Shown: positions 32,205 through 53,995 of the stretch, in pieces
Numbering within the stretch: position 1 is the stretch's first letter
Layout: the number at the start of each line of letters is the position of its first letter
NCBI GenBank assembly: GCA_947476925.1
Contig: CANJSF010000019.1
Span: 1-64,000 of the forward strand
Length of the DNA: 64,000 bases
Reading direction: 5' to 3'
From: Rhodospirillaceae bacterium
GTDB taxonomy: Bacteria; Pseudomonadota; Alphaproteobacteria; Rhodospirillales; Rhodospirillaceae
Position numbers and translations under genes: made by a program
The notes under the pieces: model-generated
Told to the model about the DNA's origin: nothing
The model's database searches: none
What the model saw: the letters and a program-made list of their open reading frames with translations, nothing else

Positions 32205-32281
32205 GGGCCTGTAGCTCAATTGGTTAGAGCCGACCGCTCATAACGGTCTGGTTGCAGGTTCGAGTCCTGCCGGGCCCACCA
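32205..32281 (+). tRNA. tRNA with CAT anticodon (tRNA-Ile2 favoured over elongator tRNA-Met)
   Basis: A 77-base cloverleaf with encoded CCA. The acceptor strands GGGCCTG (32205-32211) and CGGGCCC (32271-32277) pair with one wobble. The D stem is GCTC/GAGC. The anticodon stem GACCG/CGGTC encloses loop CTCATAA. The T arm is GCAGG-TTCGAGT-CCTGC. CAT reads Met, or Ile when the C is modified to lysidine. The C4-G69 and C5-G68 acceptor pairs are those known to mark tRNA-Ile2 for TilS, so I favour Ile2. Accessory DNA begins immediately downstream, so this is a likely island insertion point. Confidence 0.95.
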
Positions 32282-32591
32282 TGTTTTCAATTACTTAGCG
32301 TAAACATGGCGCTTAGTTTTCAGCCGTAAGTGCACAGTAAGTGCAATGATTGGTAGTCGGCTGCGAATGACGGCGAACATCACACTCGGGTTTGACTGTT
32401 TAAAAATTCTCGTTTTACTTGGAAGAATTGAAACTGATTGAGCCAAGCTTCTCCATGTCGCGGTAGGCAGTAATGGGTACGTAATCTCAGGCAAGCCGGG
32501 GTGTGAAAGACCCGCCCTTGGGCTCTCAGGGCCACTTAGCACGCAGCGTAAATTGATTTGCTGGGCAATAGCTTGATGGGAGGCCAACGAA
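32282..32591. other. Gene-free interval between the tRNA and the first island gene
   Basis: No credible gene. It contains the close direct repeat GTAAGTGCA (twice within about 25 bases, around 32325-32345). If the tRNA is an integration target, one attachment boundary would lie here. No integrase gene is visible on either strand nearby. Confidence 0.4.
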
Positions 32592-35511: not shown

Positions 35512-35856
35512 ATGGCTGTGGCGCTCGATGGTGTGTGGTTAGGGTTTTTAGTCGGCGATGCGACGGCGGCTTTAGCGGGTACCATTGGTACTATTTTCGG
35601 TACACTTGAAGCAGCACTGAATTACGTCGGAAAATATGGGTTTGAAGTGCCAATTATTGGCGGAGCAATCGGTACAGTGCCGTTTTGGCTTTCAGCCAAG
35701 CGCGTTTATGGCATCACAATCCAGTATCAATCGAACATCCGGCACAAAAAAGGGGCCATACTATTTGGACCGCATTTAAACCCGAACTACCAAGAAGCTA
35801 TTGCAAATTCTGCTTCCGACTTGGACGTTTGGGAACGTTCTTATCGAGTTCGTTAG
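35512..35856 (+). CDS. Small hypothetical protein, possibly membrane-associated
   Basis: A 114-residue frame with a Gly/Ala-rich hydrophobic N-terminal half (FLVGDATAALAGTIGTIFG, then VPIIGGAIGTVPFWL) that could span a membrane, and a polar C-terminal half. No family recognised and no clear ribosome site. Its end overlaps the DUF4145 gene on the other strand by 59 bases, which lowers confidence. It could be a decayed gene. Confidence 0.35.
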   Translation: MAVALDGVWLGFLVGDATAALAGTIGTIFGTLEAALNYVGKYGFEVPIIGGAIGTVPFWLSAKRVYGITIQYQSNIRHKKGAILFGPHLNPNYQEAIANSASDLDVWERSYRVR

Positions 35857-36490
35857 CGCGATGGTCGTGCAAATAGACTTCCGCAATAAGGCTCTCGGCG
35901 ATATCGAGTACTATATTTATGTCGCTACAGGACGGGTCGTATCCACGATGAATTGCAGCGTCACCAGCGCCTAATATAGAGTCGAGATTCCCGCGCTGGC
36001 GTACAGACACATATCCGGCTTTCTGCAAGGCATCCATATTTGCCTTGAAGCTACCCTGATCTCCCACTTTTTCTATCATCACGCTCTCAATCGCAGCCCT
36101 GATTCCCATCGCTGCAAGCCTATGCATATCGTTTTGAACCGCTATGTAAACCTCACGCATCAGCGCACAGGTAAGGGCAGGCACGGTCACATTCGAGAAT
36201 AACTCAAAAAGTTCATGGTTGACCCACGGTGGTTCACGGCGAGCTATAGCTGGCGGGTAGAATACAGTAGTTGCGGGCGTATCCTCCGACCATTGCTGCG
36301 TGTGCCGCAACTTCACAGTTTCACAGCCGCGACACTTGAGCATTTCATAAACCTCGTGCCAGTGTTCAACGTCTTCCTCTTGGCCTCCATGTTCCTCGTA
36401 TGTGCCTTCTTTCCGCTCAGCAGTAATGACATCATGTTTTGTGGGCTGACCGCACTTGTTGCAGTGGGCCATCGTAATCTCGTGTGACAT
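35798..36490 (-). CDS. DUF4145 domain-containing protein with zinc-ribbon-like N-terminus
   Basis: A 230-residue protein. The N-terminal part has two Cys pairs (CNKCG and CRGC) that look like a zinc ribbon. The C-terminal half matches DUF4145: PALTCALMREVYIAVQ, IRAAIESVMIEK and the GDAAIHRG motif near the end. DUF4145 is common in restriction and other defence proteins, and the same domain opens HsdR in this window. The ATG at 36490 has GGAGG six bases upstream. It is followed, on the opposite side of a bidirectional terminator, by a NucS-like gene. Role probably in defence, by context. Confidence 0.8.
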   Translation of the reverse strand: MSHEITMAHCNKCGQPTKHDVITAERKEGTYEEHGGQEEDVEHWHEVYEMLKCRGCETVKLRHTQQWSEDTPATTVFYPPAIARREPPWVNHELFELFSNVTVPALTCALMREVYIAVQNDMHRLAAMGIRAAIESVMIEKVGDQGSFKANMDALQKAGYVSVRQRGNLDSILGAGDAAIHRGYDPSCSDINIVLDIAESLIAEVYLHDHRANELDKNVPKRPSRKQNLQ

Positions 36491-36603
36491 GGTAGCCTCC
36501 ACCACTGGACCAGAATCACCATTTCCTAGCCTCTGGAGTGGCAATACTAGCTTCTAGACAATTAACAGCAATCTGCTTTGACGAACACTCAGAGGAAAAG
36601 CAA

Positions 36604-36633
36604 AGGGCCACCGTGATTGGCCCTCATTTTTTT
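36604..36633. terminator. Bidirectional terminator hairpin
   Basis: AGGGCCA (36604-36610) pairs with TGGCCCT (36618-36624) and is followed by CATTTTTTT on the plus strand. On the minus strand it is followed by TTTGCTTTTCC, so it can end the leftward NucS-like transcript. Confidence 0.75.
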
Positions 36634-36643
36634 GAGCGCCACG

Positions 36644-37417
36644 TCAGCCGACAGATTTGAGACGAAAATCAATTTCATACTCGACCAATTTGACGCCTAG
36701 CACCATTGACGTTGCTAACTTCAGGTCCTTATCAACTGATCTGGCAACTATGATGCCACGCACATCTTTGCCGTCTGCCAGATTGGCCTTCACCCAGCCC
36801 ATGTATCCCAAAAGCTGGCCGATGGTCCGCTCATGCCCACGGGAGACTTTCAATTCAATAACGACAAAAGTGCCGCCCTTATCCCGAGCAAGTATGTCAA
36901 TACGCCTTCCATCGGCTGGAAACTCCACGCCATCAAAAGCACCGTCCTCATCTTGATATAGGGCTAAACCTGGCTCAAGCTTGCCAAGGTTCCTTGCAAG
37001 ATAATCGCGCAGATCGGTTTCATACGCGAACTGACTCGCCGACTCGGAATCCTCGTCGGCCAGCCGCGATTCTTCATTAGCCTCACCTTTCTCATCAGGT
37101 GAGACGGCATCAACTAGGTCTTTGCCATATTCAGGGGCTGGATCAGTGGCAGGGTCCCACAGTCGATATTGCGCGGGACCCATCTTGAAAAATAAGTCGA
37201 AGTTCTTGCCAGGCTTTATGCCCTTGTGATGTTTGCGATTTGGCGAATTTACCGACATGCCATCGACATGCATCCGTACGGTAGTGTCGCGGATTTTCGG
37301 ATATCGCTGTGCAAACCATTTTACCGCTTCCATTTTGCCAAATACCTGACCAGGCTTAAGGGTCTCGGCTGCAAAGATGTGCATCAGGTCTTTTGTCGGT
37401 TTCTCGTATATGGACAT
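36644..37417 (-). CDS. NucS/PD-(D/E)XK nuclease-like protein
   Basis: A 257-residue protein. The C-terminal half matches the NucS/DUF91-type nuclease fold: LRDYLARNLGKLEPGLALY, then the catalytic pattern GRRIDILARDKGGTFVVIELK (Asp...Glu-x-Lys), and IGQLLGYMGWVKANL. The N-terminal ~110 residues form another helical domain seen with such nucleases (KWFAQRYPKIRDTTVRMHVD), and an acidic linker joins the halves. AAGG precedes the ATG. It is divergent from hsdM and probably acts on DNA as part of the defence block; the exact substrate is not known. Confidence 0.83.
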   Translation of the reverse strand: MSIYEKPTKDLMHIFAAETLKPGQVFGKMEAVKWFAQRYPKIRDTTVRMHVDGMSVNSPNRKHHKGIKPGKNFDLFFKMGPAQYRLWDPATDPAPEYGKDLVDAVSPDEKGEANEESRLADEDSESASQFAYETDLRDYLARNLGKLEPGLALYQDEDGAFDGVEFPADGRRIDILARDKGGTFVVIELKVSRGHERTIGQLLGYMGWVKANLADGKDVRGIIVARSVDKDLKLATSMVLGVKLVEYEIDFRLKSVG

Positions 37418-37616
37418 GTCGGCCTTGAACCTTTGATCAACTCACGCTCTGCTATTTCTAGCCGCATTTCTTCAAATTTAGCGAGTATTTTAGCTTTACG
37501 CTGGCTACTATGTTAACCAGACTTTGTTGGGTGTTGCTTGGCCTAAATATGCCCTCGGCAGGGTAATCGAAGACTTTGGAACCGATTGATAATTTCGGTC
37601 TGATTGGGGTGGCTAA

Positions 37617-39158
37617 GTGTTAACTGGCGAAATTCGCAACCAAGTCGATCAAATCTGGAACGCGTTCTGGTCGGGGGGCGTTTCCAACCCCCTCTCGGTC
37701 ATCGAGCAGATCACATACCTGCTGTTCATCAAGCGCCTGGATGATCTTCACACCCTTGAAGAAAGCAAAGCTGCCAGCTTGGGCAGCCCCATGGAGCGAC
37801 GCATCTTTCCAGAGGGGAAGGATGACCAAGGCCGCCCTTATGCTGACTTGCGCTGGTCTCGCATCAAGAACTTTGAAGCCCGCGAAATGATGGACGTTGT
37901 GGCTGACCGCGTGTTCCCGTTCTTGCGGGAACTTGGCGAGAAGGGCTCCAGCTACGGCCAGCACATGAAAGATGCGCGGCTTGGCTTCAGCAATGCGTCG
38001 TTGCTCGCCAAAACCGTTGATATGATCGACAAAATCCCTATGGATGATCGTGATACCAAGGGCGATCTATACGAATACATGCTGGGCAAGATCGCCAGCG
38101 CCGGGACTAACGGTCAGTTCCGCACTCCGCGCCACATCATTCAGACCATGGTCGAAATGATGCGTCCGACACCCGATGACGTGATTTGTGACCCAGCCGC
38201 CGGCACCTGCGGCTTCTTGGTTGCTGCAGGTGAGTATCTGCGCGAAAACCATCCGAAGCTGTTCCGTGATGAAAAGCTGCGCAAACATTTCCACGGCGGG
38301 ATGTTCCACGGCTTTGACTTCGACCCGACCATGCTGCGTATCGGCAGCATGAACATGACCCTGCACGGGGTTGATAATCCTGACGTGAGTTACCGCGATA
38401 GTCTCGCCCAAGAGCATGACGGTGATGCGGGTCGGTATTCACTGATCCTGGCTAACCCGCCTTTCGCGGGATCGCTGGACTACGAACAGACCGCCAAAGA
38501 CCTTCAGCAAATCGTCAAGACCAAGAAGACCGAACTGCTGTTCTTGGCGCTGTTTTTAAGATTGCTCAAAACTGGCGGGCGCGCAGCGGTCATCGTGCCG
38601 GACGGCGTTCTCTTTGGTTCATCGAAGGCCCACCAGGAACTGCGGAAGCAACTGGTGGAAAACCATAACCTTGAGGGCGTGCTGAAGTTGCCGTCAGGCG
38701 TGTTCCGCCCCTACGCGGGTGTCTCGACCGCTATCCTGCTGTTTACCAAGACTGGCGTCGGGGGCACCGATCATGTCTGGTTTTATGACATGCAGGCCGA
38801 TGGTTACTCATTAGATGATAAGCGCAATGCGCTACTCCCAGACGAGAAACAAGGCGCCAAGCCACAATCAGCATTAACTGCTGATGACCACGCCAAGAAC
38901 AATCTCCCCGACGTTCTGGCCCGTTGGAACAAGCGCGACCAAGAGGAGCGCAAGAACGCTCGCACAGCCCAAAGCTTTTGCGTGCCGAAGGCCGAGATCG
39001 CCGCGACTGGTACCTATGACTTGTCGCTCAATCGCTACAAGGTGGTTGAGCACGAAGAACAAAAGCACGACACCCCTGCCGATATCGTTGCCGAACTGCA
39101 CAAGCTAGAGTCCGAAATCAGCGAAGGCCTAAGCAAGCTAGAGGCGATGCTGAGATGA
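37617..39158 (+). CDS. hsdM: Type I restriction-modification system DNA methyltransferase subunit HsdM
   Basis: A 513-residue N6-adenine methyltransferase that modifies the host recognition site and forms the core of the type I complex. The N-terminal HsdM_N domain (FWSGGVSNPLSVIEQITYLLF, part) precedes the AdoMet motif DPAAGTCGFL near residue 192 and the catalytic NPPF at about 280. The start is GTG 37617 after GGGGTGG. It overlaps hsdS by four bases (ATGA) and heads the hsdMSR operon. Intact by all visible motifs. Confidence 0.96.
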   Translation: MLTGEIRNQVDQIWNAFWSGGVSNPLSVIEQITYLLFIKRLDDLHTLEESKAASLGSPMERRIFPEGKDDQGRPYADLRWSRIKNFEAREMMDVVADRVFPFLRELGEKGSSYGQHMKDARLGFSNASLLAKTVDMIDKIPMDDRDTKGDLYEYMLGKIASAGTNGQFRTPRHIIQTMVEMMRPTPDDVICDPAAGTCGFLVAAGEYLRENHPKLFRDEKLRKHFHGGMFHGFDFDPTMLRIGSMNMTLHGVDNPDVSYRDSLAQEHDGDAGRYSLILANPPFAGSLDYEQTAKDLQQIVKTKKTELLFLALFLRLLKTGGRAAVIVPDGVLFGSSKAHQELRKQLVENHNLEGVLKLPSGVFRPYAGVSTAILLFTKTGVGGTDHVWFYDMQADGYSLDDKRNALLPDEKQGAKPQSALTADDHAKNNLPDVLARWNKRDQEERKNARTAQSFCVPKAEIAATGTYDLSLNRYKVVEHEEQKHDTPADIVAELHKLESEISEGLSKLEAMLR

Positions 39159-40321
39159 GCGCGAAAAGAATTGCGCTGGGTGAACTGATTGTGCCAGCAA
39201 AAGTGCCACGTGCAGGTGACGTTGATTTTCCGATACTCTCAATGACCATGCATGGCGGTCTAGTGGACCAATCCGAGAAATTCAAAAAACGCATAGCAAG
39301 TGCTGATACTTCAAACTACAAAGTTGTAAGCGCTGGGCAATTGGTTATTGGGTTCCCTATTGATGAAGGTGTGCTGTCGTTTCAAAGCCGATATGAAAAG
39401 GCAATTGTGAGCCCGGCCTATGAAGTTTGGGACGTTCGCCCTGAGCACAATACCCATAGGCCATACTTGGAACGCTTTCTTAGAAGCCCCGATTCATTGA
39501 GTTTTTACCGCGGCAAGTTGAAGTCGACCACTGCTCGACGCAGAACTGTACCCCGCGAGACATTCTTGTCGCTCTTGATTCCCCTCCCCCCTCTCCCTGA
39601 ACAGAAGCGCATTGCGGCGATCTTGGATCACGCTGACGAATTGCGCCGCAAGCGCCAACGCGCCATCGACCGCCTCAACCAACTCGGCCAAGCCATCTTC
39701 TATGAGATGTTTGGGGATCCGGCGAGTAATCCAATGGGCTGGCCCATTGGTAAAATTAATGACCTCGCCGCGTCCACCCAATATGGGACAAGCGCAAAAG
39801 CAGGTGCAGAGGGTGCTTATGCAATTCTGCGAATGGGTAACGTAACGACATCTGGCGATATCGATCTAGCAAGTTTGAAATACATCGACTTCAACAGAGA
39901 CGAAGTTGAAAAATATACAGTGTCCGCAGGGGACATCCTTTTCAATCGCACGAATAGCCCCGATCTTGTTGGGAAGACCGCAGTGTATCACGGTGATCGA
40001 CCTTTTGGCTTTGCAGGCTACCTAATTCGCTTAAGAACCAATCATAACGCCGTTCCGGAATACCTTAGTGCGTTTCTCAACAGCCCATTCGGCAAGAAAG
40101 TACTTCGCAATATGTGCAAAGCCATCATCGGGATGGCGAACATAAATGCAAAGGAACTACGCAGTATCGCACTCCCCGTCCCACCTATCGAAAAACAGCG
40201 CGAGTTTCAAAAAAAATTGAGCAGCATCCGCGATGTTTATCCACACCTTAATGCGTCGGGCCGAGGTCTTGATGGACTCTTCTCATCGTTGCAACATCGC
40301 GCCTTTCGAGGAGAACTGTAA
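39155..40321 (+). CDS. hsdS: Type I restriction-modification specificity subunit HsdS
   Basis: A 388-residue specificity subunit with the usual two target-recognition domains. TRD1 covers about residues 1-145. The central conserved helix is LPPLPEQKRIAAILDHADEL with RQRAIDRLNQLGQAIF. TRD2 runs from about 195 to 335. A second conserved region begins LPVPPIEKQREFQKKLSSI. Each TRD reads half of a bipartite DNA site. It overlaps hsdM by four bases and is followed two bases later by hsdR. Confidence 0.95.
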   Translation: MSAKRIALGELIVPAKVPRAGDVDFPILSMTMHGGLVDQSEKFKKRIASADTSNYKVVSAGQLVIGFPIDEGVLSFQSRYEKAIVSPAYEVWDVRPEHNTHRPYLERFLRSPDSLSFYRGKLKSTTARRRTVPRETFLSLLIPLPPLPEQKRIAAILDHADELRRKRQRAIDRLNQLGQAIFYEMFGDPASNPMGWPIGKINDLAASTQYGTSAKAGAEGAYAILRMGNVTTSGDIDLASLKYIDFNRDEVEKYTVSAGDILFNRTNSPDLVGKTAVYHGDRPFGFAGYLIRLRTNHNAVPEYLSAFLNSPFGKKVLRNMCKAIIGMANINAKELRSIALPVPPIEKQREFQKKLSSIRDVYPHLNASGRGLDGLFSSLQHRAFRGEL

Positions 40322-40323
40322 TC

Positions 40324-43300
40324 GTGTCGCAGTTCGCCTTCCTCCAGTCAGAGTTTGGGCAGGTCTTTGATCTGGCACAGAAGGCCGAAACTGCTGCTTT
40401 ATCTGATCCACGCGGTTCCTGCTTCTATGCCAGGCTCGCCCTAGAGAGCGCCGTTAAGTGGATGTATGCCAATGACCGCAGTTTGCGATCACCCTACGAC
40501 ACCACACTATCTGCGCTGATCCACGAAGGCACGTTCCGTACCGTTGCTAGTAGTGCGCTGGTCACCAAAGCCCGCATCATCAAAGACCTGGGCAATACGG
40601 CGGTCCACGAGACCCGTCCAGTCCCGCCACAAAACGCCATTACCTGCGTCCGCGAACTGTTTCATTTCAGTTATTGGCTGGTGCGGACCTACGCACGAGG
40701 CCCAAAACCTGACGCCTCACTGACTTTCAAAACCGATGTCTTGCCACGCGCGGTCCAAGTCGAAGCATCAACTCTCGCCAAACTTCAGTCGCTGGCCAAT
40801 GCCCAAGAGGATGCCACCAATGCATTGGCCGCCGAACAAGCTGCACGATTACGCACCGAGGAACAGCGTGCTGCGCTAGACGATGAGATCAAACGCCTTC
40901 AGGACGAAATTGCGGCCATCAAGCAGACCAACCAGGCGGCCCCGGATGCCCACGACTATAATGAAGCCCAGACCCGCGACGCGTTTATCGACCTGTTGTT
41001 GAGTGAAGTTGGCTGGCCGCTCGATCAGCCCCGTGATCGTGAATACCCCGTCAAAGGGATGCCTAATACAGCGGGTGATGGCTTTGCCGACTATGTGCTG
41101 TGGGGTGATGACGGCAAGCCTTTAGCCGTTATTGAGGCCAAGCGCACGAAACGCGACCCCCGCGTAGGCCAGCAACAAGCAAAACTCTACGCCGACTGCC
41201 TAGAAGCTGAGTTTAGCGTTCGCCCTCTCATTTTCTATACGAATGGCTATGAACACTGGCTGTGGGATGACCAACGCTACCCACCGAGATCAGTTCATGG
41301 CTTCCTCAAAAAGGATGAACTGGCACTGTGGCGGCAGCGCAAAGACGACCGTCGCACACTGTCGGCTACTACCATCGACCCGGATATTGTTGAACGTTAC
41401 TACCAGACCCGCGCCATCAAACGAGTTGGTGAGGCGTTCGAGAAAGACCACCAACGCAAGGCTCTGCTGGTGATGGCGACCGGCTCAGGCAAAACCCGCA
41501 CGGTCATCGCACTCATTGACCAACTAATGCGCGCCAATTGGGTCAAGCGCGTATTGTTTCTGGCCGACCGCGTGGCCTTGGTGAAGCAAGCCCATAACAA
41601 CTTCAAAAAGCACCTGCCCAGCGCCCCAAGCGCCAACCTGATCGAAAAGCACGACCCTAAGAAAAACGACCACAACGGCGCGCGCGTCTGTGTCGCAACC
41701 TACCCGACGATGATGGGCCTGATCGACGAGATGCAAAATGGGCAGCGCCAATATGGCCCAGGACACTTTGACCTGATCGTTATCGACGAAGCCCACCGCT
41801 CAATTTACCGCAAGTACCGGTCCATCTTCGATTACTTTGACAGTCTGCTCGTCGGCCTGACCGCCACCCCGCGCGATGAGATCGACCATGACACATATTC
41901 CCTCTTCGAGCTGGAACGCGGCGTCCCAACGGATGTGTATGACCTGGATAATGCGGTGGCAGATAAGTTTCTTGTGCCGCCAGCACCAATCTCAGTGCCT
42001 CTCAAGTTTCAGCGGCAAGGCATCAGGTACAACGACCTTTCGCCCGAAGATCAAGAAAAGTGGGACCTGCTGGAATGGGAAGACAAACTTCCCAACCGTG
42101 ACATTGACCCCAACGAGGTCAACAAGTGGCTCTTTAATACCGATACCGTCGATAAGGTGCTCGAACACCTGATGACCAATGGCCTTAAGGTTGCGGAGGG
42201 GGATCGACTGGGCAAGACGATTGTCTTTGCCAAGAACCACGACCACGCCATGTTCATTGCACAACGCTTTGACGCCAACTACCCGCATTTGGCCGGGCAG
42301 TTTGCGCGGGTGATCGACTACAGCACCGAATACGCCCAATCCCTGATCGACGATTTCTCCATTACCGACAAAGCCCCACACATCGCAATCTCTGTCGATA
42401 TGCTCGATACTGGCATCGACGTACCCGAAGTCGTCAACTTGGTATTCTTCAAGATCGTGAGGTCCAAGACCAAGTTCTGGCAGATGATTGGGCGCGGCAC
42501 ACGCCTTTGCCCAAATCTGTTTGGTCCAGGTAACCACAAGAACCAGTTTCTGATCTTTGATTTTTGCCAGAACTTTGAGTTCTTTAATCAAAACCCAAAG
42601 TTTGTTGATCCCAAAGCGGCTTTGTCGCTTGGTCAGCGCCTGTTCACGGCTCGCGTCGAACTCGCCGCTCTATTGGGCAACGCACCGGAGACTGGCCCAG
42701 ACGAACACCTGACGGCCCTTGATAAGGATATCCGCAAACGCCTCTTTGATGAGGTGAGTGGCATGAGTCTGGACAACTTCATCGTCCGCGCCAAGCGCAA
42801 GGCGGTCGAGCATTTCCAGAAGCAAGAAGCCTGGTCCTCACTCTCCCCCGATGACCGCGAGACGCTGATTACGCAAGTGGCCGGGCTCCCGTCAGCCTTG
42901 GAAGACAACGATATTGCGGCCAAGCAGTTCGATTTCATCATCTTGAGCGGCCAACTTTCATTGCTCCGCCAAGATACGGCGATCTTACGCTGCCGAGAAA
43001 AAGTTACCGATCTTGCAGGCAAGCTTGAGGCCCTGAGCAATGTTCCTATGGTTGCCGCCGAAATGGCGCTGATCCTTGAAGTTCAAACTGAAGAATATTG
43101 GAAAGACATCGACGCCTGGACACTTGAACAACTGCGCCGACGACTGCGGTCCCTGATTAAGTTGATCGAGGCTGAAGAGCGCAAAATCGTTTACACCGAC
43201 TTTGAAGACGAAATCGGCACGGGCACCACAATCGTTCTCCCCGACATTGGCACCGGTACCGACAAGGAACGTTTTCTCAAAAAGGTTAGGCACTTTCTTG

Positions 43301-43728
43301 AGAAACATGAGAACCACATCACGATCCTCAAACTGCGTCGCAATGAACAACTCACAAAGCAAGACCTAACCGAACTTGAACGCATTATGGCTGAAGAAGC
43401 AGTTGCGACAGACCAAGACCTGGAAGGTGTGCGGTCCGAGGGCGGGCTCGGCCTATTTATCCGTTCGTTGGTGGGACTTGAACGCGATGCAGCAAAGTCC
43501 GTTTTTGCTGACTTCACGGCAAACAAGACCCTTAACAGCAATCAAATCGAGTTCATCAACCTCATTATTGAACACTTGACTGATAAAGGCGCGATGGAAC
43601 CCAGCCGTTTGTATGAAAGCCCATTCACGGATATCGACGATCAAGGAGTCAGCGGCATCTTCACTCAGGCCGACGTACAGCAACTAGTCCAGGTTCTGGC
43701 CGAAGTGAAGCAGCGCGCGGCCGCCTAA
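40324..43728 (+). CDS. hsdR: Type I restriction endonuclease subunit HsdR
   Basis: The 1134-residue motor and nuclease subunit. The first ~130 residues are a DUF4145 domain (CFYARLALESAVKWMY, GNTAVHETRPV). A coiled coil follows, then the PD-(D/E)XK nuclease (ADYVLWGDDGKPLAVIEAKR, Glu-Ala-Lys near 271). The SF2 translocase has Walker A MATGSGKT at about 384, DEAH at 488, and later SVDMLDTGIDVPEV and MIGRGTRLCP. The C-terminal part matches EcoEI-type HsdR proteins. Start GTG 40324, two bases after hsdS. All parts appear intact, so the system should restrict. Confidence 0.95.
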   Translation: MSQFAFLQSEFGQVFDLAQKAETAALSDPRGSCFYARLALESAVKWMYANDRSLRSPYDTTLSALIHEGTFRTVASSALVTKARIIKDLGNTAVHETRPVPPQNAITCVRELFHFSYWLVRTYARGPKPDASLTFKTDVLPRAVQVEASTLAKLQSLANAQEDATNALAAEQAARLRTEEQRAALDDEIKRLQDEIAAIKQTNQAAPDAHDYNEAQTRDAFIDLLLSEVGWPLDQPRDREYPVKGMPNTAGDGFADYVLWGDDGKPLAVIEAKRTKRDPRVGQQQAKLYADCLEAEFSVRPLIFYTNGYEHWLWDDQRYPPRSVHGFLKKDELALWRQRKDDRRTLSATTIDPDIVERYYQTRAIKRVGEAFEKDHQRKALLVMATGSGKTRTVIALIDQLMRANWVKRVLFLADRVALVKQAHNNFKKHLPSAPSANLIEKHDPKKNDHNGARVCVATYPTMMGLIDEMQNGQRQYGPGHFDLIVIDEAHRSIYRKYRSIFDYFDSLLVGLTATPRDEIDHDTYSLFELERGVPTDVYDLDNAVADKFLVPPAPISVPLKFQRQGIRYNDLSPEDQEKWDLLEWEDKLPNRDIDPNEVNKWLFNTDTVDKVLEHLMTNGLKVAEGDRLGKTIVFAKNHDHAMFIAQRFDANYPHLAGQFARVIDYSTEYAQSLIDDFSITDKAPHIAISVDMLDTGIDVPEVVNLVFFKIVRSKTKFWQMIGRGTRLCPNLFGPGNHKNQFLIFDFCQNFEFFNQNPKFVDPKAALSLGQRLFTARVELAALLGNAPETGPDEHLTALDKDIRKRLFDEVSGMSLDNFIVRAKRKAVEHFQKQEAWSSLSPDDRETLITQVAGLPSALEDNDIAAKQFDFIILSGQLSLLRQDTAILRCREKVTDLAGKLEALSNVPMVAAEMALILEVQTEEYWKDIDAWTLEQLRRRLRSLIKLIEAEERKIVYTDFEDEIGTGTTIVLPDIGTGTDKERFLKKVRHFLEKHENHITILKLRRNEQLTKQDLTELERIMAEEAVATDQDLEGVRSEGGLGLFIRSLVGLERDAAKSVFADFTANKTLNSNQIEFINLIIEHLTDKGAMEPSRLYESPFTDIDDQGVSGIFTQADVQQLVQVLAEVKQRAAA

Positions 43729-49019: not shown

Positions 49020-49102
49020 ACGGGAACAACATCAAGTTGCGGTCTTTAAAACCACGTCTTATACTCAGATTATAACCATGCTTTGGCATTTGGAGATTGG
49101 CG

Positions 49103-51247
49103 ATGAGCAAATTTAGCTGGCTGCGTGTAATTGCAGATTTCTGCGTTAACGCGCTCCAAAAATGGCCTGGGGAATTTAGAACTCGCGGAAGCCAAGTGTT
49201 TCTTAGTTTGCCTAAGCAGTTTATGGCGATGGCGTTCATAGATTTGCCGATCACGATCAAGACGCCTGTACTTGCGGACGAGGGATTACTGCGCCCTTGG
49301 TCTGCGATTCCCCGCGCGATCTATTTCGTCGCCACTTTGTTCATGCTGACTTTGCCTAACGCCTTAACGGCGCAATCAATGAACTCTGACCAAGCTGGAA
49401 CCACGACCTTCAATTCCTCGTTGGCAAATGAATTCACTCTAACAGCCGGCCTTTTCTCAGGCTTCACAGGCCTCAACGGCACAGGCACAGTGACTTTAAG
49501 TCCTCCAGGACCGACGTACCCTAGTGGCACAGTCGTTACGGTTACAGCTACAGCAGCAAGCAACTCTTTGGTTCCTGGAAGGGGCTCTGCGTTTGTAGGT
49601 TGGGAAGGTGGCCCTCAAGTTGACGGCTTTATCGCCCCTGGGCCGCCCCAAGGCTGCTCAACTTCCGTCACCCCCACCTCCACCGCTTCGTGTCAAGTTA
49701 CTATGACTTCCAACTTGACGGTCACAGCAAAGTTTAAGGCATTGGCTAGCCTGACCACTAGCATCGCAGGAACTGGAACAGGGACGGTAACGAGGACAGT
49801 CCAAGGTGACCGGAGCGCAGCTGGACCTTACGTTACTAACGATTACGTGGGGCTAACAGCAACGGCGTCGCCCGGCTCGGTCTTTGCGGGTTGGTCAGGC
49901 AACCTCAAATGCAGCGGAATAGCAAGTCGCTGTATTGTTGTGTTAGATGATAATTTTGCGGTCGTTGCAAACTTTACTACCGTTCCTTCAGGCCAATACA
50001 CCTTGACCGCTAACTGGACCGGTAACTGGGAGAGCTATACCGCATTCCACAGTTCTGCTACGGTGACTGCGAGTCCAGCCGGGCCGTCGTATGCCCCCGG
50101 TACAGTGGTGACCCTGACAGCGACAGTCAGCGGGCCCAACTCGTCTAACGAGCCCTACTATTCTAAATCTGTCTTTGAAGGCTGGACTGGAGCCTGCAGT
50201 GGCAGGTCAATTAACTGCAAAGTCAGAATGAATTCTAGTCAATCAGTAAATGCCAAATTTGGACTAGTATATGGCGGACTGGCTGGTGGACGGAGGCTAA
50301 GCACCAGCATCGAAGGAACTGGCGACGGTGAGATAACGGCGAGCCCGGCCGGGATGACCGAGCCGCCTAACCCCACATACTTTAACCAGTATAATCCTAA
50401 TACAATCGTGACACTGACAGCGAAGGCCGTGCCAGGTTCTGTCTTTGCGGGCTGGACCGGAGCCTGTAGTGGTACTCGCTCTACCTGTGTTCTCACAATG
50501 AATACAGATCAATCAGCTGCGGCAATATTTAAATCTGCCCCGCTGTTGCGCGTAAGCGCAATTTTCCCGACGTCACAATCGGGTTCGCAATCGTATCTGC
50601 GGTTTTACAACACAAGCACTTCAGCGGGAACCGTGACGGTTTCACTGTCTGATCTTGATACGGGCAAGATAATCGGTCCGTGGATAAGTCCGAATATCCC
50701 CGCCGGGGTTGCCGCGCAATATTTCATCAGCGATATCGAAAGCGGGATCGGGAAGAGCTTCACGAAACCAAATTTATACTCGATCTCAGTTCTGCCAACC
50801 TTCACAGGCTACTTTCAGCATGTCCTCTGGAATCCTGTCAGGGGGACCCTGACAAATCTAAGCACCTGCGACGCTGGGGTAGTTACTGATCCTATCAAGC
50901 TGAACAATGTGCACTCGTCGAAACTTGATAACAGCTATCCAAGTTCGGTCGTGATTAATAATACTGGTACTGATGCCCAGTCTGTAACTCTCAGCATTTT
51001 TGAAGCCAGCACTGGCAACAAGATTGGCAGCTACGTCACCGCGACTATTCCTGATGGCGCGAGCGTCATCTTGCCAATTAAAATAATCGAGACGGGAGCC
51101 GCGATCACTCCGACGCCGACTATGTATCATTACATCATTAAGGCTGAGAGCCCGTTCACCGGATTTCTCCAGCACCTAGTTAACAATACGCAAGCAGATT
51201 TAATCACTGATATGACGACTGTGTGTACTCTGGTGAAGCCCGAATAG
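49103..51247 (+). CDS. Exported protein with four InlB-type B-repeats
   Basis: A 714-residue protein predicted to be exported. Four divergent InlB B-repeat-like units run from about residue 105 to 475. Each has a GTGTVT or ATVTASP opening, a long VTLTATA strand and a closing VFAGWTGACSG...C...NAKF pattern with a Cys pair. The last ~235 residues are beta-rich and unrecognised. The hydrophobic export segment (IYFVATLFMLTLPNALTAQ) starts only near residue 70, leaving a long N-terminal extension. ATG 49103 has GGAG upstream; a later start is possible. Probably an adhesin or surface protein. Confidence 0.82.
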   Translation: MSKFSWLRVIADFCVNALQKWPGEFRTRGSQVFLSLPKQFMAMAFIDLPITIKTPVLADEGLLRPWSAIPRAIYFVATLFMLTLPNALTAQSMNSDQAGTTTFNSSLANEFTLTAGLFSGFTGLNGTGTVTLSPPGPTYPSGTVVTVTATAASNSLVPGRGSAFVGWEGGPQVDGFIAPGPPQGCSTSVTPTSTASCQVTMTSNLTVTAKFKALASLTTSIAGTGTGTVTRTVQGDRSAAGPYVTNDYVGLTATASPGSVFAGWSGNLKCSGIASRCIVVLDDNFAVVANFTTVPSGQYTLTANWTGNWESYTAFHSSATVTASPAGPSYAPGTVVTLTATVSGPNSSNEPYYSKSVFEGWTGACSGRSINCKVRMNSSQSVNAKFGLVYGGLAGGRRLSTSIEGTGDGEITASPAGMTEPPNPTYFNQYNPNTIVTLTAKAVPGSVFAGWTGACSGTRSTCVLTMNTDQSAAAIFKSAPLLRVSAIFPTSQSGSQSYLRFYNTSTSAGTVTVSLSDLDTGKIIGPWISPNIPAGVAAQYFISDIESGIGKSFTKPNLYSISVLPTFTGYFQHVLWNPVRGTLTNLSTCDAGVVTDPIKLNNVHSSKLDNSYPSSVVINNTGTDAQSVTLSIFEASTGNKIGSYVTATIPDGASVILPIKIIETGAAITPTPTMYHYIIKAESPFTGFLQHLVNNTQADLITDMTTVCTLVKPE

Positions 51248-51363: not shown

Positions 51364-51921
51364 TCAGCTCGGGTGGGACATAATCCGCATGAGGGGGTTG
51401 CACAGGGCAAGCCTGAGATAGTCATCGAGCATCGCCGCGACGGTTTCCCGATCAGTGGGTGTCGGGAATAAAATGGCGCACGTCCAATTGTTTCTGCCGC
51501 TGCGGTAAGCCTCGGGGCTCGCGTAACTCGGATAGACTCTCGCGCCCGTCTTCCGAAACATACCGTGTTCGGGGTAATAAACCTCAAGCGGGTTGTCGAA
51601 GACGCACACGATCCGCTCAATCAGGTCGAGTTCGCAATAGCCGCGCTCGACCTGATTGAAGATGTGGCATACGGATTCCATCGCCTGTCGGGGTGGCAGA
51701 AGCGGGTTGAACAGAATGACGGGGCCAACCCCAACTTTTAGCACCGGCTTTGGAGGAATGCTCTTCGGTAGCTTTTGGTCCACGTGAGGCATGAACAGAG
51801 TGCCGGTTACTGGTTGCAAGCCGATGCTTGTTTCCTCTAGGCCATAGACGTTGAAGACAACATCTCCATACCCGTTCGTGGTCGTTGTGCTCGTTGTGCC
51901 GGTTTTGCTTTTGGCGTTCAT
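51364..51921 (-). CDS. Hypothetical protein
   Basis: A 185-residue soluble protein I do not recognise. A Thr-rich N-terminus (TGTTSTTTTNGYGDVVFNVYG) precedes an alpha/beta body with VLKVGVGPVILFNPLLPP, CELDLIERIVCVFDNPLEVYY and a C-terminal helix. AAGGAG lies 6 bases before the ATG, so translation is likely. It is convergent with the InlB-repeat gene. No function assigned. Confidence 0.65.
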   Translation of the reverse strand: MNAKSKTGTTSTTTTNGYGDVVFNVYGLEETSIGLQPVTGTLFMPHVDQKLPKSIPPKPVLKVGVGPVILFNPLLPPRQAMESVCHIFNQVERGYCELDLIERIVCVFDNPLEVYYPEHGMFRKTGARVYPSYASPEAYRSGRNNWTCAILFPTPTDRETVAAMLDDYLRLALCNPLMRIMSHPS

Positions 51922-52275
51922 GGTCGCTCCTTAACTAACTTGATTAGCGGCAATTTGTGCGGGCCGTTTGGGCTGGTCGCTGATCGACAAACGGCACGGC
52001 TGCCACACACAACAAATTAGTATTCGACGACGGCGTTCAATCGTTCTGCGGCAGAGCGTGGGAATGAGCGGCAGCCCATCTGTGGTCCGCTCACAGAGGT
52101 TCTGGTGCTGTCAGCACGTCCGAAGACGCGAGGGCAAAATCCAACCGTGTTGCGATAGGCCGCAGAGCGTCAAACGCGCCTCTTGCGGATTCCGCAGGCG
52201 GTAACGGATGAGTCACTGGATATTGTAAATACTAATTTGAAGCATGACGTGTTCGCTGACTTGCCAGGGAGAAAT
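51922..52275. other. Gene-free interval before the HUH-like gene
   Basis: About 350 bases with no credible gene. Short plus-strand frames here are Arg/Cys-rich and unlike real proteins. It separates the divergent 51364-51921 and 52276-52890 genes and must carry their promoters. I see no repeat. Confidence 0.4.
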
Positions 52276-52890
52276 ATGATGCGCCGAGATCAACAGAAAA
52301 TCCGGGGACCTTTTAATACGACGCACCCGCACCAAGGGAGCAGTAGCCTGTATCTACCCCGACAGGCAGGTGATCCGCCGCGCATCAACACTAAAGCACT
52401 GCAAGAGGCACATCAGCAGTTTATCACAGAATTTGATGAACTGGACTGTTACGCCACCTTCAACTTCAACCGCAAAATGAGTCCATTAGATGCGCGGCAT
52501 AAAATCGGCCAATGGGCGCAAAGGATAGATCACTATTGTCTTGGTCGTGGCTATGCACGCAAACCCGATCAACGCACATTTTTCATGTTATTCCCCGAGC
52601 ACATCTACACCAATTTTCATTATCACGGAGTGGTGCGCCCATGCACCTTTCGGAAGGGGGATAATATTTGCGACTTCTTGCCGCTTGCCAAGGACGTGTG
52701 GCGCAAGGTCGTGCCGAGCGGAACCCTCAATCTTGAGGACGCCCGCGATATGAAACGTGTCGTCAACTACTCGACAAAAAGCATGTGGTCTCCACCGACT
52801 ATGGAGAACATGATCATCTCTACAGAATTTCATTCAAGAAAAGCTAAGGTTGATCTCCGCCCTTCGCCATATCCATGGCACCAGAAGTAG
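52276..52890 (+). CDS. Candidate HUH-type rolling-circle replication/relaxase-like protein
   Basis: A 204-residue protein. Three spaced motifs match the order found in HUH single-strand endonucleases: a first strand motif (DCYATFNFNRKM), a His-hydrophobic-His motif in TNFHYHGVVRP, and a Tyr-x-x-Lys motif in RVVNYSTKSMW, which would hold the nicking tyrosine. The ATG at 52276 follows GGGAGAAAT; the frame extends to 52183 without ATG. It is too small for a conjugative relaxase with helicase. Direct repeats, an iteron-like array and a serine recombinase follow within 1.1 kb, consistent with a replication or mobilisation protein. The assignment is by motif only. Confidence 0.6.
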   Translation: MMRRDQQKIRGPFNTTHPHQGSSSLYLPRQAGDPPRINTKALQEAHQQFITEFDELDCYATFNFNRKMSPLDARHKIGQWAQRIDHYCLGRGYARKPDQRTFFMLFPEHIYTNFHYHGVVRPCTFRKGDNICDFLPLAKDVWRKVVPSGTLNLEDARDMKRVVNYSTKSMWSPPTMENMIISTEFHSRKAKVDLRPSPYPWHQK

Positions 52891-53073
52891 CGCGATGCTG
52901 TGATCCCGAGGCCCCGCAAAAATTAACGTTTAGATTTGTTTGTGCAGATCTGCACAAAATTCGGACTGTGATTTGGCCTTGTGCCCCTCACTGGTTCGGC
53001 AGGCTCTGTAGCAACGCCCAGACCGCCTGAAGGTGCTTCTTTGCACCAAGCAAGAGGGGGAAACCCGTTTTGC

Positions 53074-53128
53074 ATCGGTAAGTCATGTCTAAATGGGTTT
53101 GTATCGGTAAGTCATGTCTAAATGGGTT
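53074..53128 (+). repeat. Perfect 26-bp tandem direct repeat
   Basis: The same 26 bases, beginning ATCGGTAAGTC and ending AAATGGGTT, occur at 53074-53099 and 53103-53128, with a period of 29. The duplication is exact, so it is recent or maintained by function, for example as a recombinase or replication-protein site. Confidence 0.9.
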
Positions 53129-53161
53129 AGTTCAAGGCGCTGCGGCGCAAATTCAATACAA

Positions 53162-53260
53162 GATCAAACAGATCAACGCGATCACACGATCAACCAAATA
53201 AAAGATCAACCAATTAAAAGATCAAAACGATCAAAACGATCAACGCAACAACACGATCAC
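53162..53260 (+). repeat. Phased GATCA(A/C) iteron-like array
   Basis: Nine copies of GATCAA or GATCAC start at 53162, 53171, 53180, 53188, 53204, 53220, 53229, 53239 and 53255. Spacings are 8-10 or exactly 16 bases, so the array is phased. This is typical of protein-binding iterons near a replication origin or operator. Confidence 0.8.
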
Positions 53261-53323
53261 GTCGTCACATGGTCAATTTGACTACCAAGTGAGTCAATGA
53301 CGCTGACTACGCGGCTTTTGAAG

Positions 53324-53346
53324 CCAATGCGTCAAAACCAATGCGT
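53324..53346 (+). repeat. CCAATGCGT direct repeat pair
   Basis: CCAATGCGT at 53324-53332 and 53338-53346, 14 bases apart, followed by an inverted ACGCAT at about 53354. It lies 60-80 bases before the serine recombinase start and could be its operator or recombination half-sites. Confidence 0.6.
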
Positions 53347-53404
53347 GACCACCAACGCATAAGCCAATTCGACAAAAACAAATAACAGATGGGGATATGG
53401 ATAC

Positions 53405-53995
53405 ATGACCAAACGTGTGGCGTTGTATTTGCGTGTCAGCACCAATGACCAGACCACTAAGAATCAACGGCGTGAACTAACGGTGGTGGCAAAGCGACAG
53501 GGGTGGGATGTGGTTCAGGTATTCGTCGATGAGGGGATTTCCGGGGCTAAGGGGCGAACGCAGCGACCTGGCTTGGATGCCATGTTACGGGGCGTGGCGC
53601 GGAAAGACTTTGATCTGGTGGCCGCGTGGTCGGTAGACCGTCTAGGCCGGTCGTTACAGGACCTGGTTTCGTTGTTGGCTGATCTACATTCAAAGAACGT
53701 TGATTTGTATTTGCACCAACAGGGATTGGACACGACCACGCCGTCCGGGAAAGCCATGTTTCAAATGCTTGGTGTGTTCTCAGAATTTGAACGAGCAATC
53801 ATTCGGGAGCGCATCAAATCGGGTTTGGCTAGGGCGCGTGCTGAGGGCAAAGTGTTTGGTCGTCCCCGGGTGTCGGCGACGGTGGAGGCTGCTATACGTG
53901 CGGCGCGGCGGAAGGGGACAGGGATGAGGCGGATTGCCCGCGAGTTGGGCGTTGGGGTATCGACGGTGCAGAGGGTGGTGGGCGCAAACGTTTGA
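53405..53995 (+). CDS. Serine recombinase (resolvase/invertase family)
   Basis: A 196-residue small serine recombinase. The catalytic Ser is in LYLRVSTNDQ near residue 12. Further motifs are VDEGISGAKGRTQRPGLDAML, WSVDRLGRSLQDLV, the dimer helix FSEFERAIIRERIKSGLARA and GRPRVSA. A C-terminal HTH (MRRIARELGVGVSTVQRVV) follows. It cuts and rejoins DNA at short sites through a phosphoserine link. The family resolves cointegrates or inverts segments. The repeats just upstream are candidate sites. Confidence 0.93.
   Translation: MTKRVALYLRVSTNDQTTKNQRRELTVVAKRQGWDVVQVFVDEGISGAKGRTQRPGLDAMLRGVARKDFDLVAAWSVDRLGRSLQDLVSLLADLHSKNVDLYLHQQGLDTTTPSGKAMFQMLGVFSEFERAIIRERIKSGLARARAEGKVFGRPRVSATVEAAIRAARRKGTGMRRIARELGVGVSTVQRVVGANV

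Follow-up and report, generated by a model that had tools for sequence, protein, structure and literature searches.

Organization of the locus

The window – the whole stretch of DNA analyzed here, 64,000 bp in length and corresponding to positions 1-64000 of the 70,078-bp contig C19 – carries between 52.3 kb and 54.0 kb a gene for a small HUH-endonuclease-like protein, a palindrome, a tandem repeat, an array of GATCA pentamers, and a gene for a small serine recombinase, in that order. The first gene (52276-52890, forward strand) is an open reading frame encoding 204 amino acids, with a ribosome-binding-like site (AGGGAGA). A 12-bp perfect inverted repeat (CAAATTAGTATT and AATACTAATTTG, at 52013-52024 and 52228-52239) occupies an intergenic position, with a divergent gene (51364-51921) on one side and the HUH gene on the other.

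A 20-bp perfect palindrome (TTTGTGCAGATCTGCACAAA, 52939-52958) begins 48 bp past the HUH stop codon. No perfect palindrome in the 70-kb contig is longer, and its stem of 10 with a loop of 0 exceeds all those in 30 random 300-bp pieces, which reached at most 7. The palindrome is not conserved in relatives, and a conserved hairpin beside the HUH gene was rejected as a general feature, as hairpins are present at some loci only and share no common motif. No RNA families were found at the locus. We regard the palindrome as a candidate nick or binding site, or alternatively as a terminator.

The tandem repeat (53069-53128, forward strand) has a 29-bp unit present in two copies (2.1 copies at 96% match), within which a 26-bp string, ATCGGTAAGTCATGTCTAAATGGGTT, is repeated exactly at 53074 and 53103; this is the perfect 26-bp direct repeat recognized in the initial annotation. 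Within the genome it is found only here, and the first 24 bases of ATCGGTAAGTCATGTCTAAATGGGTT have no further genomic occurrence at up to three mismatches. The nine GATCA copies (53162-53259) lie in an intergenic segment that is A+C-rich on the forward strand, and start at positions 53162, 53171, 53180, 53188, 53204, 53220, 53229, 53238, and 53255. The copy number of nine given in the initial annotation thus stands. The successive spacings of 9, 9, 8, 16, 16, 9, 9, and 17 bp (i.e. 8-9 or 16-17 bp) are multiples of about 8-9 bp and do not correspond to helical phasing. The array is not explained by chance: nine copies fall within 98 bp, whereas 5000 first-order Markov simulations of the same 276 bp gave 0.8 on average and never more than 5. 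It is also the densest GATC cluster of the 64 kb.

The second gene (53405-53995, forward strand) encodes a 196-aa serine recombinase of the resolvase/invertase type with a C-terminal helix-turn-helix, and matches PF00239 (E=2e-46) and PHROG 125, DNA invertase (E=2e-57), in agreement with its initial designation as a serine recombinase.

The 204-aa protein is a predicted HUH endonuclease

The 204-aa protein has no match to any Pfam family at E<=1, nor to families in PHROG or NCBIfam. It contains a motif I (FNFN, residues 62-65), a glutamate at E108, H115-Y-H117, and Y165-x-x-K168, the latter two being the HYH and Tyr-x-x-Lys motifs that first drew attention to it. An AlphaFold model computed with six family members as input (core pLDDT about 80-95, overall mean pLDDT 67) has the predicted topology strand, helix, strand, HYH strand, helix, strand, Tyr helix. 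HYH is placed on a strand spanning residues 115-121 and Tyr165 on a helix spanning residues 159-167, so that the model displays the arrangement that defines the HUH superfamily, with HxH on the central strand and Tyr on a later helix.

Comparison of the model with solved structures retrieved mostly the nuclease domains of parvovirus NS1, AAV Rep, and plant-virus Rep proteins, each match being weak and none reaching E<=1e-3. Fold comparison with viral proteins gave 18 matches at E<=1e-3 (best 8e-6), of which the named ones are Rep/ORF2-G2P proteins and a microvirus replication initiator, and wheat dwarf virus Rep was recovered as a weak profile match (E=0.06). Structure prediction, the check called for by the initial annotation, therefore yields an HUH topology with matches dominated by HUH nucleases. 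Because this topology is predicted, the active-site residues are near-invariant among relatives (see below), and the matches are to Rep families, the assignment of the protein as an HUH (Rep-type) endonuclease is well supported by the model and the motifs together.

Members and conservation of the HUH family

The family comprises 28 distinct loci including that of the window, beginning with a first homologue in Azospirillum and followed by genome searches with growing profiles. All of the hosts are Alphaproteobacteria, either by name or by kinship to named ones. The genome under study and most of those of the relatives are drafts, and contig ends hide the context at some loci. Members are single-domain proteins of about 155-260 aa with a mean column identity of about 17%, against which the conservation of the catalytic positions is pronounced: E108, H115, Y165, and K168 are invariant in all 28, and H117 is present in 26, with the second histidine replaced in the other two (HFG in Azospirillum and HFN in another). 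The window protein has a terminal branch of 0.64 in the family tree, relative to a median of 1.41.

PF23343 (REP_ORF2-G2P) matches 11 of the 28 members at E<=0.01 (best 6e-8), but the window protein itself is unmatched and does not qualify for membership. Searches of viral contigs and phage records with the queries used gave no homologue of the HUH family. The family, which resides on alphaproteobacterial mobile DNA elements, is apparently undescribed.

The serine recombinase and its upstream region

The window resolvase has a 77% identical paralogue in the same genome (G000:C24) and many relatives within the order. Its closest relatives (75-77% identical) lack the GATCA array, and the stretches fetched around the two closest showed no HUH gene. 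Many of the relatives have their own dyad res-like site upstream, with a core like TACCGAAAACAGTTGT. The layout upstream of the resolvases at L038, L039, L043, L045, L048, L053, L070, and others consists of a half-site resembling GTTCGGAAAACCCC followed by a dyad resembling TACCGAAAACAGTTGTATTCGGTA, and is located shortly before the resolvase gene. A res site of this family type is missing upstream of the window resolvase, where the best score is 1.9, compared with 15-33 for the family sites and 11.4 at the C24 paralogue.

No array comparable to that of the window is present at the 27 other HUH loci or upstream of any of the 23 resolvase relatives examined. The array was accordingly rejected both as a set of iterons common to HUH loci and as a conserved res site of the resolvase, being missing upstream of the 77% identical paralogue and of 22 other relatives; conservation beside the Rep gene in relatives, which marks an iteron-type origin, is likewise not seen. 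The 29-bp repeat was considered as a divergent res half-site, and neither a position-weight scan nor local alignment with the paralogue was significant. Both the array and the 29-bp repeat appear to be private to this locus, presumably as local additions, and most likely form a putative binding site of either the resolvase or the HUH protein.

Genomic settings of the HUH relatives

A recombinase gene, as called with small home-made profiles, lies within 5 kb of the HUH gene at 23 of the 28 loci, with serine recombinases at 12 and tyrosine recombinases at 14, some loci having both. In nine genomes, seven of ten HUH loci have a recombinase within 5 kb, relative to 0.3 expected (P about 3e-9). 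The link to mobile DNA that was suggested at the outset is therefore borne out, with the family tied to integrative elements, small plasmids, and recombinases. The exact order of HUH gene, repeat, and recombinase is found nowhere else among the loci examined, although the pairing of HUH and serine recombinase genes does recur (12/28 within 5 kb). Recombinase type does not cluster on the HUH tree, indicating that recombinase modules have been exchanged, and the idea that HUH and serine recombinase together form one lineage was rejected on these grounds. The serine recombinases beside the HUH genes at L036, L097, L105, L107, and L108 belong to a different subfamily from that of the window and are no more than about 30% identical to it. 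We infer that the window serine recombinase is probably a separate, exchangeable module acting in dimer resolution or inversion. At 11 of the 28 loci, a DUF6626 gene lies no more than about 1.5 kb from the HUH gene; the stretches examined contain no other copy, and this neighbor is missing at the window locus.

Six other HUH loci sit between repeats of 20-51 bp that delimit elements of 4.1-16 kb. These include a 9.3-kb element at a tRNA-Met (49-bp repeats), and elements of 16 kb (about 47-bp repeats) and 7 kb (51-bp repeats) at tRNA-Phe. The smallest seen, of 4.1 kb, is at a tRNA-Gly (L101:7824-11937; 50-bp repeats) and codes for two tyrosine recombinases and DUF6626. A 4.9-kb element at a tRNA-Gln (L107:1703-6607; 20-bp repeats) has a serine recombinase, and a 10.7-kb element (L025:428-11129) with 48-bp tRNA-like repeats has several tyrosine recombinases and a mercury-resistance-like operon recognized by eye. 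A weaker case is a probable element of about 4.7 kb (L097:1774-6474) with a tRNA-Gln-type 17-bp repeat, a serine and a tyrosine recombinase, and DUF6538; the serine recombinases of L097 and L107 are 60% identical to each other. At L036 the HUH and serine recombinase genes overlap.

Two contigs of a single genome (G112), L027 (6356 bp) and L028 (5087 bp), have 99-bp terminal overlaps, and are thus probable circular plasmids (6.3 and 5.0 kb), on both of which an HUH homologue is accompanied by a serine resolvase and by a theta-type initiator (RepA, RPA E=9e-82, or Rep_3). The presence of a second initiator means that the HUH family need not be the replication initiator there, and because of it mobilization may be the main role of some members.

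The HUH locus lies in a 34.3-kb tRNA-Met island

The HUH locus is contained in a tRNA-targeted island of 34.3 kb (C19 32235-66609) that extends past the window edge. Its integration target is a tRNA-Met gene (CAT anticodon; 32205-32281, forward strand) identified with ARAGORN, the 3' end of which forms an attL-like 47-bp repeat (32235-32281), with an exact second copy at C19:66563-66609. The contig has no longer direct repeat, the att repeats having been detected by exact matching. A tyrosine integrase gene (C19 65142-66368, reverse strand; PF00589 E=1e-31) lies inside the right end of the island, 12 kb from the HUH gene. The boundaries are set by the tRNA-Met 3'-end repeats at both ends together with the integrase gene just inside one of them, the arrangement expected of a tRNA island. 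A 23-bp repeat, CCGTAAGTGCACAGTAAGTGCAA, is present just inside the left end (32324-32346) and again just inside the right end (C19:66402), and the two copies are probable integrase arm sites. The statement in the initial annotation that the island has no other visible integrase is thus a consequence of where the window ends: the tyrosine integrase and a large serine recombinase (C19 66508-68187) are both encoded 1-4 kb beyond its edge. The large serine recombinase reading frame (L021:6509-8188, reverse strand) enters the right att copy, so that tRNA sequence is translated as its C-terminus (WWARQDSNLQP...). Directly adjoining the right end of the island is a second mobile element, which has an AAA_25 ATPase.

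The island cargo includes a type I restriction system, DUF4145, NucS-like genes, DUF3768, and a metal-efflux cluster. Within it, a defence-like cluster (35798-43728) codes for DUF4145, a DUF7669/NucS-C protein, and a complete type I restriction system (HsdM, HsdS, and HsdR). A 716-aa protein with about five InlB B-repeat-like (PF18998) domains is encoded at 49097-51247, adjoined by an HTH regulator.

Discussion

We propose that the 204-aa protein is probably the HUH nickase of an integrase-moved, 34.3-kb tRNA-Met island, and that it starts rolling-circle processing after excision. The tyrosine integrase would excise the island as a circle from the tRNA-Met 3' end, and the HUH protein – with a metal held by Glu108, His115, and His117 – would then nick one strand of the circle via Tyr165. 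The nick could prime rolling-circle processing, in the form of circle replication, of a relaxase role in helper-driven mobilization, or of both.

The initial annotation favored a self-contained replication or mobilization module at 52.3-54.0 kb; in such a unit the HUH protein would replicate it from the iteron array, and the serine recombinase would carry out its integration or resolution. Compact pairs of HUH and serine recombinase genes are indeed known in relatives, at L036, L107 (4.9 kb), and the probable element L097 (4.7 kb), and on the circular contigs. However, the 1.7 kb is not flanked by repeats, an integrase and att repeats belong to the island as a whole, the nearest resolvase relatives lack the array and showed no HUH gene in the stretches fetched, and the serine recombinases adjacent to HUH genes at L036, L097, L105, L107, and L108 are of that other subfamily, with recombinase type unclustered on the HUH tree. 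This interpretation is largely refuted, and we consider it very improbable. Still less credible is a self-moving single-strand transposase in the style of IS200/605, IS91, or Helitrons; the predicted HUH fold with a single Tyr would fit such an enzyme, but the elements end in direct repeats derived from tRNA genes, as is typical of integrases, there is neither a conserved hairpin nor a helicase domain, and the Pfam and fold matches favor Rep proteins.

A closer rival holds that the protein is mainly a relaxase, nicking an oriT from which a helper conjugative element mobilizes the island, with no role in replication of the island itself. The two circular contigs that pair an HUH gene with a theta-type initiator (RPA or Rep_3) lend weight to this, as do streptococcal integrative and mobilizable elements (IMEs) that combine tyrosine integrases with rolling-circle-derived relaxases (PMC5357655, PMC5704250), but neither a nick site nor an oriT was found, the scanned island proteins include no coupling protein or relaxosome (accessory Mob) component, and the weak Pfam relatives are replication proteins only; we regard it as possible, if somewhat unlikely. 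That the gene survives from an older element, decaying or repurposed and now functionless, would fit with its 12-kb separation from the integrase, with the missing DUF6626 neighbor, and with the absence of the family's res-like site upstream of the resolvase. It is an improbable explanation for an intact reading frame with a ribosome-binding-like site, every catalytic residue, and a terminal branch less than half the median length.

More broadly, and tentatively, the HUH family could mark a so far undescribed class of small alphaproteobacterial plasmids and tRNA-targeting integrative elements, with a core consisting of an HUH nickase (often with DUF6626) and any recombinase, whether tyrosine, small serine, or large serine. 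The 4.1-kb element would be the smallest form and the window island a 34-kb cargo-laden version, with the HUH protein acting as joint initiator and relaxase. Detection of mobile DNA relies on relaxases and replication initiators as markers, and Pfam misses the window protein and most of its relatives. DUF6626, a frequent HUH neighbor, is a domain of no known function, and no papers naming PF23343, DUF6626, DUF6641, or DUF6538 were found in the open-access library searched. Should these elements use the HUH protein as their nickase, it would provide a handle on many inert-looking small alphaproteobacterial islands (e.g. those with metal resistance or restriction systems), and would give context to DUF6626 and DUF6641.

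Among known systems, the nuclease domains of parvovirus/AAV and CRESS Rep proteins share with the window protein the predicted topology, the Tyr/Lys helix, and the E-x6-HxH spacing, which is that of AAV Rep; the window protein differs in lacking a helicase domain, and identity is about 10%. The REP_ORF2-G2P proteins (PF23343), Reps of small ssDNA phages, have in common with it the HUH fold, HxH, and YxxK, whereas the window family is found in integrative elements and plasmids, as single-domain proteins of about 155-260 aa. The window recombinase resembles the small serine resolvases and invertases of PF00239 in its 196-aa length and C-terminal helix-turn-helix, and departs from its relatives in having no dyad res-like site upstream.

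The combination of an integrase with a rolling-circle-type nickase is an already known plan, and the HUH family described here is different from the published ones. Streptococcal IMEs are compact elements with tyrosine integrases and relaxases derived from rolling-circle initiators, and related ICEs use a single protein for both replication and transfer (PMC5357655, PMC5704250). The likeness lies in a compact, site-specific element with an integrase and a Rep-like HUH protein (PMC5357655). The window family differs in being alphaproteobacterial and targeted to tRNA genes, in having another HUH family with no TcpA seen, in its swapping of tyrosine and serine recombinases, and in its DUF6626 and DUF6641 neighbors.
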